DNA of 64,000 bases from Methanocorpusculum sp. Its GTDB lineage: Archaea > Halobacteriota > Methanomicrobia > Methanomicrobiales > Methanocorpusculaceae. Below are positions 6,699-12,195 of the stretch, piece by piece; the stretch's first letter is position 1, and each line of letters begins with the position of its first letter. Both the position numbers and the translations under genes were made by a program. The stretch covers positions 1-64,000 of the forward strand of contig NZ_JAUSPQ010000006.1 of assembly GCF_030655665.1 (NCBI RefSeq), written 5' to 3'. A model generated the notes under the pieces. The model was given only the letters and a program-made list of their open reading frames with translations. It had not been told where the DNA came from and ran no database searches.

Positions 6699-6771
6699 AT
6701 TTAATTGAGTGAAAATAACACAGCCGATTAAGGAATACTTGATTTACAAGAAGAGCAAATCTAGCCATAAG

Positions 6772-7716
6772 ATGGATGATCATACGTATGTTGCCGCGGT
6801 CGATCTTGGAGCTACACATCTCCGTGCGGGGATCGTTGACAAAGAGGGGGCGATCGAGGCATTTTCCCAAAACGAGGTCAAAGACCTCTCAAGCGCGGCG
6901 GATATACGGATCCTGATATCAAAAATGATCCTTGATCTGAGCCGGGGTACCGGGATCACGCCGAAAGCGATCGGGATCAGTACCGCGGGGCCCGTCGATC
7001 TGAAGACCGGTTCGGTCGTCTGTTCACCCAATATGAAATGTGAACGGATCTTCCTTTCCGGACCGCTCCAGGAAAAGTTCGGCATTCCGGTCCGTATGAT
7101 GACCGACTGTAAAGCGGGCGTCCTTGGAGAATATTATTTCGGCGGGGCAAAGGACGCGGCAACGCTCGTGTATCTGACCTTTTCCACCGGGATCGGCGCA
7201 GGAGTTCTGGACCGGGGCAGGCTCTTATGCGGTTCGAATGGAAATGCCTCGGAAGCCGGTCACCTTCTCGTGGATACGACCTGGAATCTTCCCTGCGGCT
7301 GCGGAGGGGTCGGGCACTGGGAGGCATACGCGAGCGGAACCGGGATCCCGAACTTTTTCCGGGTCTGGAGTGAGGATCGTATCGACTGTGATCCCAAACC
7401 TTCGATGAATGCCGGGCAGATCCTGTACGCAGCGGAACATGGAAGTCCGCTCTTCTGTTCCTTTGCAGAAGAGCTCGCAAAAATAAACGGACGGGGACTT
7501 TCTTCGGTCGTTGCGGCCTACAATCCTGATTTGATCGTGCTTGACGGCCCCGTTGTCAGAAACTATCCGGCGCTGATAGCCAAAAAAATGACCGAATGTA
7601 TGGATCACTACCTGACGATGCCGGAGATCCGCATCTCCGCTCTTGAGGGAAAAGCCCCCCTGCTCGGTGCCTCGGTCTCTGCATTCAAAGCTGCCAGAGT
7701 TGAGAAAAATCGATAA
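6772..7716 (+). CDS. ROK-family sugar kinase (glucokinase-like)
   Basis: 314 aa from ATG 6772 (MDDHTYVAAVDLGATHLRAG); the frame extends upstream to a GTG at 6709 that would sit too close to the promoter. Phosphate-binding motif DLGATHLRAG at residues 11-20, catalytic Asp in RMMTDCKAGVLGEYYFG, second nucleotide loop STGIGAGVL, and the ROK zinc motif CGCGGVGHWEAYASG at about residues 177-191. It probably phosphorylates a hexose in the cytoplasm. Monocistronic. Substrate cannot be read from sequence. Confidence 0.88.
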   Translation: MDDHTYVAAVDLGATHLRAGIVDKEGAIEAFSQNEVKDLSSAADIRILISKMILDLSRGTGITPKAIGISTAGPVDLKTGSVVCSPNMKCERIFLSGPLQEKFGIPVRMMTDCKAGVLGEYYFGGAKDAATLVYLTFSTGIGAGVLDRGRLLCGSNGNASEAGHLLVDTTWNLPCGCGGVGHWEAYASGTGIPNFFRVWSEDRIDCDPKPSMNAGQILYAAEHGSPLFCSFAEELAKINGRGLSSVVAAYNPDLIVLDGPVVRNYPALIAKKMTECMDHYLTMPEIRISALEGKAPLLGASVSAFKAARVEKNR

Positions 7717-7819: not shown

Positions 7820-9793
7820 ATGAGAGACACCGTATTTACCCGCTTTCGAAGATGGTTTCAAAACAACTTTGTCTTCTTCGGACCAGGTCTTCTTCTCGCA
7901 ATAACCGCGGCCGGTGAGGCAGGGGTAACTGAGGCAATCGAAATCGGCGCACACTACGGTCCGGCGCTGATCTGGGTAGTTATCATCACCCTCGTCTTCA
8001 AATACGCATTCACCAATGGAATCGCCCGATATACTCTCGCGACGAACCAGACGATCTTTGACGCACTCAATCGTCTGCCAGGTCCGAAAAACTGGGGTTC
8101 CTATCTGATCATCGGCTCCTATCTCATGGAGATGTTTGCAATCGGCGCGATGCTCGTCTTTTCCGCAACATTTCTGGACTATCTTCTTCCCGGGATCTAC
8201 TCGGTCTTTCTCATAGCAGTTTTCCTCCTTATATTAACGCTCGCCGTCATTCGGACGAGTTCATACGAGATCCTCGAACCGGTCATGGCAGTGCTGATAA
8301 GCATACTTGCAGGCGTTGTTCTCATCTCCCTTTCTCAGTTCCCGCTCTCCTTCAACCTTCTTCTGGACGGACTGGTCCCTTCGATCCCCGCAGGTTCCGA
8401 GATGGCGATCCTCGCAATTCTCGGAGTGGTCGGGTCCGGACTGAACCTGATGCTCTATTCGGTCTGGCTTTCACAGAAAACAAAGATCCACTCGGAAAAT
8501 AAAGAGGAGTGCACACTCCAAAACGAGTCTTTTTTCAGAAAATACATCCGCAGTGTGAATTTTGACGTGCTGACCGGGTTCTTCTTTGTCGCAGTCATCA
8601 CGATCGGTTTCATGTTCCTCGGGTATGCGGGATATGCCGTATCTTTCATGCCGCACGGGGCGGAGATCACGCTTGATACGCTGATCACCCAGATCCTCTA
8701 TATTTTCAGCTCGATACCCTACGGACCGTATCTTTTCCTGATGTTCGTCGCGATCATCTTTTTCGGGGCGGTCGTCGTCGGTATGGACGCCCGTGCCCGC
8801 GCTCTCGCAAAAGTAGTTCGCCACCTTGGAGAAGACAAGGGGATGAAACTGCCAAGCGAGTATAATCTTTATCAGATCGTTCTCCTCGTATTCACCGGTG
8901 TGATCATCCTTGCTATGGTGATCGCGGATCCGATGACAGTCATTCGTCAGATCGCGGCACTTTCAGCGATCCTTTTTGGTATCTTCGGATTCATCGTCAT
9001 TTATCTGGACAGCAGACTGCCGAAGTATGCAAAAGGATCCAGAATCTGGACTGCCATAATGATGCTCGGGAGCGGGCTTTCGATCTATGTAGCTTTACTG
9101 ATAGAATCCTCGTTCCTCGTAAACGGCATCCCACTGATCGAACGAATGCTCGTGATCGTAGTGATACTCTTCGTCTTCACAAAGACGGATATGTTTAAGA
9201 AACTCGTCAGCGGAACGGCGACTCTTGCAGATAAGGCCTGGACGGTCGCGTTAGGCGGCGGTCTTTCCATTTACGGCGTTTTTAGGGGGATCGATGTCAA
9301 CGGTCTTATCTTCAACTTCAGCGCGATCGGACCGATCGTCGCCGGACTTCTGGGAGGTCCGGTCGTCGGCGGACTTGCCGGACTTATCGGATGCATCTAC
9401 CGTCTGGCCCAGGGCGGACCGACAGCTGTTGGATGTTCACTTGCCATTCTCGCGGCCGGACTTATCGCAGGATTTGCCGTCCGCTGGTGGCAGGGAAGGA
9501 TCACCATCTTCAAAGCAACCGTATTGACCGTCATCATCGAATGGATACACCTGCTCATCATCGTTCCGGGATGCGGACTCCTTTTGGGTACACAGACCGT
9601 TGACGAGATCATAGCGATCATTGCGAGCACGTTCCTCCCGATCACGATCGTCAATACCCTTGGCGTGGCATTGTTCGCCTACTTCGCGAAAGACCATATC
9701 GTTTTCGCCGCAGGGACAGGCAAACTGTTCGGCAGAAAGAAACCGGAGACCGGGGATGGACCCGAAGAAGAGGAAATAAAGGAGGAGAAGTAA
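7820..9793 (+). CDS. Nramp-like transporter fused to a C-terminal 5TMR-LYT domain
   Basis: 657 aa, all membrane apart from linkers. Residues about 1-455 read as a divergent Nramp/Mn2+-Fe2+ carrier: FFGPGLLLAITAAGEAGV is the first unwound helix region, but the canonical DPGN is absent, so the cargo may not be Mn/Fe. Residues about 470-630 match the LytS-YhcK five-helix sensor domain: FSAIGPIVAGLLGGPVVGG, GLIGCIYRLAQGGPTAV and AILAAGLIAGFAVRW are its hallmarks. That domain is normally N-terminal to kinases or GGDEF domains; here it ends a carrier. TATATAA 30-36 bases before the ATG predicts a short-leader mRNA. The binding-protein gene follows immediately. Confidence 0.8.
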   Translation: MRDTVFTRFRRWFQNNFVFFGPGLLLAITAAGEAGVTEAIEIGAHYGPALIWVVIITLVFKYAFTNGIARYTLATNQTIFDALNRLPGPKNWGSYLIIGSYLMEMFAIGAMLVFSATFLDYLLPGIYSVFLIAVFLLILTLAVIRTSSYEILEPVMAVLISILAGVVLISLSQFPLSFNLLLDGLVPSIPAGSEMAILAILGVVGSGLNLMLYSVWLSQKTKIHSENKEECTLQNESFFRKYIRSVNFDVLTGFFFVAVITIGFMFLGYAGYAVSFMPHGAEITLDTLITQILYIFSSIPYGPYLFLMFVAIIFFGAVVVGMDARARALAKVVRHLGEDKGMKLPSEYNLYQIVLLVFTGVIILAMVIADPMTVIRQIAALSAILFGIFGFIVIYLDSRLPKYAKGSRIWTAIMMLGSGLSIYVALLIESSFLVNGIPLIERMLVIVVILFVFTKTDMFKKLVSGTATLADKAWTVALGGGLSIYGVFRGIDVNGLIFNFSAIGPIVAGLLGGPVVGGLAGLIGCIYRLAQGGPTAVGCSLAILAAGLIAGFAVRWWQGRITIFKATVLTVIIEWIHLLIIVPGCGLLLGTQTVDEIIAIIASTFLPITIVNTLGVALFAYFAKDHIVFAAGTGKLFGRKKPETGDGPEEEEIKEEK

Positions 9794-11032
9794 ATGTCCG
9801 GTCATCATGAAAAACCGCCGCAGACAAAAGCATCGAAGTACATCACCCTCGGGATCATCATCCTGACGATCCTCATGTTTATCCTCGCGTTCCACCCATT
9901 TGGGACGATCATCGACAGTGATTTCCCGGAAGATGAAGTGATTGTCGCGGTTTCACTGCCGTTTGAAGGAGAGATGACGGAGTTCGGCGTCGAGTATATG
10001 CGGGGGATCGAACTCGCAGTCGAGGATATCAATGATGAGGGCGGTATCCGGGGCGTTCCCGTACGGGCCGTGTATTTTGACAACAAAGGAAACGTCACAC
10101 TCGCAAAAGCGCAGTTCAAGGAGATCCGGGACCTCGGGATCCCGGTGGTGATCGGCGGAGTCTCGAGCACGGTCACACTTGCCATGGCGCCGTACGCAGA
10201 GTCATATGAGATCGTTCTCATCTCTCCCTCCGCAACATCCGCGAGTCTCTCGGCGTACGGCAATTATGTCTATAGAACGGTCTCCTCCGACATTTATCTT
10301 GGAGCCGGCATGGCGAAAATCATCGGCGGGAGAAACGAAACGCAGAATGTGATGCTGATCAGCCTCGACACCAGTTACGGAAAGAGTCTCAGATATGCAT
10401 TCCTCAAGGAGGCAAATGCGTCGTATCCGGATATGCATATCGTCTCCGACATATCGGTCCCCGACTCGGATACGGTGAACATAACGGAGATCATCACCGC
10501 AATGAAGGACACACATCCGCAGTCCGTTCTTCTGATCGTGAACCCGAGTCAGGGTGTAGAGATCATGAAAGCGGCGGAAAAGGAGGGCCTCTCCCCTGCA
10601 TGGTTCGCTTCCGACACGTTGACCAACCGTCAGGTCCCTCTGGAAGTCGGTGCATACGCCGATGGTCTGATCGGATTTTCCCAGGCGAGAAGGATCTCCG
10701 ATCCCTCATACGAGGAGCATTATATTGAGACATTCGGAGAAGAACTGATGGTCCGTGACTCGATCTACGGGTATGAGACGATGATCGTGGTGTCCCAGGC
10801 AATAGAAAACAGCGGATATACGGCAGACGGAATCAGGGAAGGCCTTGACCTGATCCGTCACGTAGGACTCACTGGAACCATCGTCTTCGATGAAAAAGGG
10901 GATGCATACCCTTCGTATGATGTGATGCGGCTCGAAAACGGCGAGTGGGTCGATCTTCCATGGAAAGAGGTGCTCACCTTCGAAAAGAAAGCCGCGGCGA
11001 TCTCATCGGCCCACAGCACCTCCTCCCATTGA
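9794..11032 (+). CDS. Membrane-tethered LivJ-type substrate-binding protein
   Basis: 412 aa. One N-terminal membrane segment (about residues 13-33) anchors a type 1 periplasmic binding fold: VSLPFEGEMTEFGVEYMRGI, the NDEGGIRGVPVRAVYFDNKG lobe, VVIGGVSSTVTLAMAPYAE and a SPSATSASLS ligand pocket, as in Leu/Ile/Val or amide binding proteins. No ABC permease or ATPase gene is nearby. The ATG abuts the upstream stop and GGAGGAG lies five bases before it, so it is co-translated with the Nramp/5TMR-LYT fusion. Inference: it delivers or senses an organic ligand for that protein outside the cell. Confidence 0.85.
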   Translation: MSGHHEKPPQTKASKYITLGIIILTILMFILAFHPFGTIIDSDFPEDEVIVAVSLPFEGEMTEFGVEYMRGIELAVEDINDEGGIRGVPVRAVYFDNKGNVTLAKAQFKEIRDLGIPVVIGGVSSTVTLAMAPYAESYEIVLISPSATSASLSAYGNYVYRTVSSDIYLGAGMAKIIGGRNETQNVMLISLDTSYGKSLRYAFLKEANASYPDMHIVSDISVPDSDTVNITEIITAMKDTHPQSVLLIVNPSQGVEIMKAAEKEGLSPAWFASDTLTNRQVPLEVGAYADGLIGFSQARRISDPSYEEHYIETFGEELMVRDSIYGYETMIVVSQAIENSGYTADGIREGLDLIRHVGLTGTIVFDEKGDAYPSYDVMRLENGEWVDLPWKEVLTFEKKAAAISSAHSTSSH

Positions 11033-11089: not shown

Positions 11090-11275
11090 ATGGCAATCAC
11101 ACTTGATTCAACTATCGCCGACCTTCTCCGCGAGAAACCTGAGTCTGCAGCAACCCTCCAGAGTTTTGGCATGGGCTGTCTCGGCTGCGCGATCGCAAAC
11201 AATGAGACCATTCGCGAGGCTGCAATGGTCCACGGCATCCCATTAGAAGAGCTCGCAAAAAAGCTTGGACTCTAA
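11090..11275 (+). CDS. DUF1858 protein with CLGC motif
   Basis: 61 aa, the complete DUF1858 fold: TLDSTIADLLREKPESAATL, then the redox-looking pair in GMGCLGCAIANNETIREAA, then the helix GIPLEELAKKLGL. Related proteins are called hybrid-cluster- or disulfide-associated, but a firm function is not established. TAAATATC about 37 bases before the ATG suggests its own promoter. Its 3' end overlaps the convergent CbiZ gene by four bases. Confidence 0.88.
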   Translation: MAITLDSTIADLLREKPESAATLQSFGMGCLGCAIANNETIREAAMVHGIPLEELAKKLGL

Positions 11276-12195
11276 ATATTTTTCTTTTTTACTGATTTCA
11301 GTTCGAGGACGCCTGCCTCCGGATTTGCGAGAAGATGGTTTGCCACCCGCGGTTCGTGTACAAGACGGCAGTCCATGCAGCTCCATATCTCTCCGTGCGG
11401 CGTATCGATCATCTGACCGAGATCCGTGTCCATGCAGGGATAGAGCGGGCAGTAGCAAAAACTGCATTGCTGTTCGGCATAATTATGACACGGATAATAC
11501 GGACAGTCCTCCGGGATCCATTCGTTCCAGTGGTCGCCCCCATATCGGCTGTAAATGAAAAATGACGGCCGGTGCCGTTTCACGATCGCAGGATTCCCCC
11601 GCGACCATCCGCGGGTCACGCCCCAGGTAGAGAGAAGATAGTTATCGAACCTGACCAGAGCTTCGGTCAAGGCATGAGATACGGCTTTTGAGATCCGCAT
11701 CCCGGTCTCGGTAAGGGGTCCCGCAAACGTCTCCGGGATCCCGTCCGTCTTTTCACAAGCCACAACTACGGCGTCCGTGGACAGAGCACTGCCGGGAAGT
11801 TTTCTCGCCGCGATCACCTGCATCTTCGCTTCGGTGACCGTCATCATGGCACCGAGAAGTGCGGCATCGGTCAGAGGACGTTCGCAGGTGACGATGATAT
11901 TGATCGTCCGATTCCGGTCTGAAACGGCGGCGGTCACGAAAACGGTAACGTAGTCATAGCGGGCGATGCAGAGATTCGTGATCGGCAGAGCGGTAAGAAG
12001 ACCGAAATACGGCTCTAAAAAACCATTCCGCATCGACATGCTGTTTATGTAAAGAGCGGCATCATCCGAAAACTGCCGCGGGACGGAGATGTTCAGGATC
12101 GATCTGACATCCGAAAGACCTCCGTCGACACCGTTACTTGCCGCCCTAAAGTCCCCGCGGACGATCAGGGTATCTTTTCTCAGATAATACCGCAT
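11272..12195 (-). CDS. cbiZ: Adenosylcobinamide amidohydrolase fused to a Cys-rich domain
   Basis: 307 aa. Residues about 15-215 resemble CbiZ, which hydrolyses adenosylcobinamide to adenosylcobyric acid so archaea can salvage cobinamides: LNISVPRQF, INIIVTCERPLTDAALLGAM and DAVVVACEK are visible family segments. Residues about 225-290 form a cysteine-rich small domain, with DCPYYPCHNYAEQQCSFCYC and CMDCRLVHEP giving about ten cysteines, likely metal binding. It lies two bases after the DHPS-like gene and is probably co-transcribed. Confidence 0.78.
   Translation of the reverse strand: MRYYLRKDTLIVRGDFRAASNGVDGGLSDVRSILNISVPRQFSDDAALYINSMSMRNGFLEPYFGLLTALPITNLCIARYDYVTVFVTAAVSDRNRTINIIVTCERPLTDAALLGAMMTVTEAKMQVIAARKLPGSALSTDAVVVACEKTDGIPETFAGPLTETGMRISKAVSHALTEALVRFDNYLLSTWGVTRGWSRGNPAIVKRHRPSFFIYSRYGGDHWNEWIPEDCPYYPCHNYAEQQCSFCYCPLYPCMDTDLGQMIDTPHGEIWSCMDCRLVHEPRVANHLLANPEAGVLELKSVKKKNI

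Follow-up and report, generated by a model that had tools for sequence, protein, structure and literature searches.

Organization of the locus

The sequence studied is a 64,000-nt window of a Methanocorpusculum genome (1.81 Mb, 11 contigs), for which Methanocorpusculum parvum XII is the nearest named relative at the locus, with 89% identity across the first of the two genes described here; the host is thus a methanogen of the Methanocorpusculum type. The two genes encode a transporter-receptor fusion and a membrane-tethered binding protein (SBP), and their features are as follows.

7820-9793, + strand: fusion gene, 657 aa, Nramp-type LeuT-fold carrier with a C-terminal LytS-type receptor module
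7871-9103, + strand: carrier domain, about residues 18-428 (NF037982, PF01566 and PDB fold matches)
7913-7933, + strand: GEAGVTE, residues 32-38, in TM1 at the position of the DPGN metal motif (alignment with B. fragilis Nramp)
8432-8446, + strand: GSGLN, residues 205-209, in TM6 at the position of the MPH motif (alignment with B. fragilis Nramp)
9107-9694, + strand: LytS-type receptor module, H0 at residues 430-454 and PF07694 at 457-625 (PF07694 match, alignment with H0 of BtsS/PyrS)
9782-9796, + strand: fusion/SBP junction, with the end of a GGAGGAG run, the stop TAA and an immediate ATG
9794-11032, + strand: gene for the tethered LivJ-type SBP, 412 aa (PF13458, PF01094 and solved relatives)
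9839-9895, + strand: N-terminal membrane anchor helix of the SBP, about residues 16-34 (hydropathy; modelled helix at residues 671-690 of a read-through chain)

The fusion gene stops with TAA at 9791-9793 and the ATG of the SBP gene follows at the very next base, 9794, with a GGAGG sequence just 5' of this start, and the junction appears favorable for translational coupling. Read-through from the first gene into the second was considered and set aside; re-initiation fits better, because the in-frame TAA is followed immediately by ATG and because junctions overlap in relatives. A ROK-family gene lies upstream of the pair (6709-7716) and a convergent CbiZ-type gene downstream (11272-12195). Within the window, neither ABC genes nor a kinase gene adjoin the pair, and an Rfam search of the locus found zero elements. 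Between the SBP gene and the CbiZ gene, a small ORF of ~61 codons with a CLGC motif was read by eye on the + strand (window about 11090-11275), and from its sequence it looks like a small redox-disulfide-type protein.

Carrier domain and altered metal site

An earlier sequence-only reading had placed an Nramp-like carrier without DPGN at the N-terminus of the product of 7820-9793, and both parts of this proposal were borne out. Within the carrier part, residues 37-266 match PF01566 (E 3.9e-15) and residues 21-397 match NCBIfam NF037982 (E 1.5e-28). An AlphaFold2 model of the fusion, built from 23 homologues (mean pLDDT 78.8, pTM 0.70), contains an interrupted helix 6, and the PDB entries nearest to it in fold are Nramps (8e5s, TMt 0.82; 10ky of B. 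fragilis, TMt 0.84), which places the domain in the Nramp (SLC11) family with a LeuT-type fold. When aligned with the solved B. fragilis Nramp, DPGN falls on residues 32-35, where the fusion has GEAG, and VVMPHN of TM6 becomes VGSGLN, with SGL in place of MPH. Eight positions are invariant in the 23 aligned fusions (G32, E33, G35, E38, G205, L208, N209 and Y213); GExGxxE is retained in 23/23, with a GSGLN-type motif in TM6, and two long multi-module relatives outside this set deviate from the invariant positions. Other motifs occupy the TM1 and TM6 sites in stand-alone Nramp-like proteins of the host's order and in plasmid-borne bacterial relatives. A tblastn search against plasmids returned solely Nramp-family proteins (22-31% identity); the four inspected carry other TM1 motifs, and two are located in catabolic gene clusters. 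The highest-scoring PF01566 proteins among the relatives (L124 and L125, in genomes G017 and G002) have DNDAGG at the TM1 position; a literal DPGN was looked for in these two Nramps of the host's order and not found, so the comparison rests on the B. fragilis protein, and DPGN-less Nramps of several sorts occur in these archaea. As judged by alignment, the metal site of the fusion is altered: membership in the fold family is kept while the defining metal-site feature is absent, and the sequence offers no ground to annotate the protein as a Mn/Fe transporter.

Another member of the family, YcsG of B. subtilis, putatively also without DPGN, is reported to import Mn2+ (PMC10448178), which counts against reading the two genes as one complex for an organic solute and in favor of a divalent metal importer, in which the altered-site Nramp would still move metal and the SBP would bind a metal chelate, or the linkage would be regulatory. 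The Nramp fold and family match agree with metal import, and the two invariant TM1 glutamates could coordinate a cation, but both conserved metal motifs are replaced and the SBP retains an amino-acid-type site and is not of the metal-binding SBP type, making this the most improbable of the accounts considered. Precedent for a non-metal function is provided by PxpT, an NRAMP-family protein required for growth of Corynebacterium glutamicum on 5-oxoproline (PMC13274462). PxpT and YcsG belong to 5-oxoproline gene clusters and are thereby genetically tied to the use of an organic amino-acid-like substrate; they share the family assignment with the fusion and differ from it in that no receptor module or SBP is described for them.

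LytS-type receptor module

The C-terminal part of the fusion matches PF07694 at residues 457-625 (E 2.6e-37, profile positions 2-168 of 169), and the helix at 430-454 aligns with helix H0 of BtsS, including its KT-x-x-F motif (KTDMF in the window, KTPLF in BtsS). An entire LytS-type module is therefore present, as expected from the 5TMR-LYT domain previously read at this end, and a spurious C-terminal match was rejected on the same two grounds. The module is followed by just a charged tail of about 33 residues, with no C-terminal cytoplasmic signalling domain. Loop charges fit a topology in which the N- and C-termini would be cytoplasmic and the receptor pocket would face outward. When the fusion was compared with PDB folds, the Nramp part governed the matches, and an S-component-like fold of the receptor part was not independently confirmed.

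LytS-type modules are receptors, and the pyruvate site of BtsS, with R72, R99, C110, S113 and an NxR motif, has been described (PMC10653868). The fusion shares with the pyruvate receptors BtsS and PyrS the PF07694 module with H0 and the positions N70, R99 and C110 of BtsS, which align with N499, R528 and C539. It differs from them in having Ser and Ala at the positions of R72 and S113 (S501 and A542), and in carrying the module C-terminal to a carrier and not N-terminal to a kinase. Among 29 aligned fusions, arginine is found at position 501 in 14, and R528 and C539 have both disappeared from a small group. This pattern suggests that the receptor ligand is probably a carboxylate in many members and need not be pyruvate.

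Other relatives of the fusion have two or three tandem receptor modules, or reach a length of about 1150-1170 aa. In L108:5328-8708 (G439), L050:6569-9106 and L051:5912-8503, three or two 5TMR modules stand in tandem behind an Nramp-type carrier; the Pfam family of ECF S-components, PF07155, also matches these three proteins, above cut-off in L108.

Tethered binding protein and missing ABC permease

The SBP matches PF13458 (E 3e-34) and PF01094 (E 3.5e-34), and among solved structures it is closest to Leu/Ile/Val-, Leu- and GABA/Ala-binding proteins, in agreement with the LivJ-like protein proposed at 9794-11032. The proposed membrane anchor was likewise recovered, as a single N-terminal hydrophobic helix at about residues 16-34 with a positively charged N-terminus; no lipobox cysteine is visible in the SBP sequence. 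Ligand contacts of LivJ include Ser79, Thr102 and Tyr150, according to docking (PMC6983066). In the SBP these correspond to S125, T148 and Y195 (by sequence alignment, not superposition), each identical in 20/20 homologues, and position 274, which matches the acidic site residue of LivJ, is D or E in 20/20. This acidic residue presumably binds the amino group of the ligand, as in the LivJ and mGluR sites. By family and by site residues, the SBP is a type-I amino-acid binding protein, a kind known in ABC importers or as receptor ectodomains, such as that of mGluR. When phage records were searched with the SBP by tblastn, weak matches alone were obtained, and the annotated ones are LivK.

The closest relatives of the SBP outside the pair include L105:2795-5080 (G001), a protein of 761 aa with two tandem Peripla_BP_6 domains. 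In the host's order, proteins of ~700 aa were also found with a Peripla_BP_6 ectodomain and a legumain-type Peptidase_C13 domain (L106:4075-6204, L107:1974-4073 and L110:1685-3829, in G093, G140 and G167); binding protein and protease are rarely joined in this way.

LivJ-type SBPs otherwise work with LivH/LivM permeases (PF02653). This family is absent from the host genome, so that service of the SBP to a LivHM permease encoded elsewhere in the genome was rejected, and, for this permease family, the absence of ABC partners first noted at the locus extends genome-wide. Among 199 genomes of the host's order, PF02653 is likewise absent from 37/37 genomes that carry the pair and present in 69/162 of those that do not (Fisher p 3.5e-8, a descriptive value that ignores shared ancestry). 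The pair thus has the SBP family and amino-acid-binding residues of Liv/HAAT ABC importers, but its genome has no LivH/LivM, and its SBP has an N-terminal helix as membrane anchor and a carrier fusion as partner.

Conservation and phylogeny of the pair

Linkage of the two genes was surveyed in the same 199 genomes, with strong SBP orthologues defined as those scoring >390 bits. Thirty-three of the 34 strong orthologues lie directly beside a fusion gene, and the remaining one is at a contig start, with its fusion at a contig end. Three weaker or fragmented SBPs also adjoin a fusion, bringing the total to 37 genomes; the sequence-only reading would have been refuted had the two genes been neighbors in no other genome. 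In a maximum-likelihood tree of 62 Nramp-type proteins, all 36 SBP-linked fusions included form one clade (99/95). In its outermost member (G047), on a long branch, the SBP gene precedes the fusion instead of following it, meaning that gene order was inverted once across the pair-bearing genomes without loss of linkage. With the pair present in 37 genomes and in one clade, chance adjacency was rejected. Among 393 searched genomes of the host's phylum, full-length fusions were found in the host's order and in one other genome, G439. The pair is missing from some close relatives, such as G060 (95% complete), and is therefore dispensable.

These data bear on whether the genes merely share an operon, as two functionally independent membrane proteins responding to the same condition. 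Co-transcription alone is no proof of contact, and fusions that have no neighboring SBP gene are common, which also indicates that the carrier part is not always in need of an SBP and counts against a single complex. Independence is nonetheless improbable, given the strict linkage in 37 genomes with one inversion of order, a junction suited to translational coupling and the absence of a PF02653 permease for the SBP from all of these genomes.

Five of the SBP-less fusions (L048, L059, L113, L114 and L115) form a separate clade (100/99), in which a REC-HisKA_2-HATPase kinase gene lies directly upstream on the same strand. This arrangement favors the main rival explanation, a pure sensor: the carrier would no longer transport, the SBP and the LytS-type module would be co-receptors, and the Nramp part would pass conformational changes on to a soluble kinase or another partner whose gene lies elsewhere. 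The receptor nature of LytS-type modules (PMC10653868) and the tandem modules of relatives point the same way. However, conservation within the pair is highest in the carrier (mean identity over 20 pairs of 55%, compared with 44% for the receptor module and 43% for the SBP), the fusion ends in a short tail that has no signalling domain, and no kinase gene adjoins the pair in the window. A sensor without transport is regarded as unlikely, while deserving serious consideration.

Proposed mechanism

The reading preferred here, held tentatively and at somewhat less than even confidence, is that both genes make one complex, which would act with the help of the SBP as a carrier or transceptor for a solute resembling an amino acid. 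The fusion and the SBP would form a single membrane complex, in which the tethered SBP would capture, outside the cell, a small solute that bears the head group of an alpha-amino acid, either an amino acid itself or a near analogue, and hand it over to the Nramp-like LeuT-fold carrier. The metal site of the carrier may have been remodelled to take a substrate that is organic or at any rate not Mn/Fe, and import would probably use a cation gradient. The attached LytS-type module, with its pocket outward, would read the same or a related carboxylate and either gate the carrier or report its occupancy. Support for one complex comes from linkage in 37 genomes of one clade, with order inverted in the outermost member; from the missing PF02653 permease in the host and all 37 genomes; from the amino-acid quartet of the SBP, conserved in 20/20; from replacement of the metal motifs by the invariant GExGxxE and a GSGLN-type motif; and from a receptor pocket that is conserved in part, with N499, R528 and C539 matching BtsS, together with the predicted Nramp fold. 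The loss of receptor pocket residues in some members counts against it. Structure prediction of the pair, suggested in the sequence-only reading, was carried out as a single-chain read-through of both genes with the TAA read as Gly and a 40-row alignment. Each part is well folded in this model (mean pLDDT 82.2, pTM 0.62), and the interface between fusion and SBP is not established by it, given the pTM value and an output that includes no error estimate between domains.

Relation to known systems

In their main text, Partipilo and Slotboom 2024 (PMC11109136) describe NRAMP-5TMR fusions as prevalent in archaea and as the sole case in which a 5TMR is joined to an integral membrane transporter, and propose that they link ion or metal transport to sensing. 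The window protein, an NRAMP domain followed by a C-terminal 5TMR, has this same two-domain, mostly archaeal architecture. The term "binding protein" has zero occurrences in that main text, and its passages on these fusions do not bring up the changed metal motifs or the kinase-linked clade found here. A search of the open-access literature found no report of the SBP pairing, the altered metal site or the kinase-linked clade. The novelty suggested in the sequence-only reading therefore holds for the pairing with an SBP and not for the fusion architecture, which was reported in 2024; the hand-over of ligand from SBP to carrier that it also suggested is plausible.

Precedent for SBP-dependent secondary carriers and for anchored SBPs exists in TRAP/TAXI and TTT systems (PMC11574862); membrane-anchored SBPs are known in TAXI systems from a title cited there. 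The pair resembles these systems in joining a binding protein to a secondary carrier, and differs in SBP family, in carrier family and fold, and in its built-in LytS-type module. Neither of its proteins has a TRAP or TTT Pfam match, and the pair includes no DctP-, TAXI- or TctC-type SBP and none of the membrane subunit families that go with these. By the sequence features tested, the pair is not a TRAP, TTT or Liv ABC member, though its mode of action may resemble that of a transceptor or of a secondary transporter assisted by an SBP. It is conceivable, and for now doubtful, that the two genes unite capture, transport and sensing and represent another class of secondary transport that depends on a binding protein, in which a LivJ-type SBP would serve a LeuT-fold transceptor, a carrier with its own outward-facing receptor module.

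Altogether, the two-gene unit occurs in many methane-producing archaea, and its pairing of a transporter-sensor fusion with an SBP whose usual ABC permease is missing suggests a so far undescribed type of uptake or sensing complex assisted by a binding protein. The kinase-linked clade renders the transceptor idea of Partipilo and Slotboom testable, and the pair is a specific candidate for uptake or sensing in hydrogenotrophic methanogens. If the proposed mechanism is true, a LivJ-type SBP working with a LeuT-fold carrier that bears a receptor module would be a new route to high affinity and sensing in a secondary carrier.
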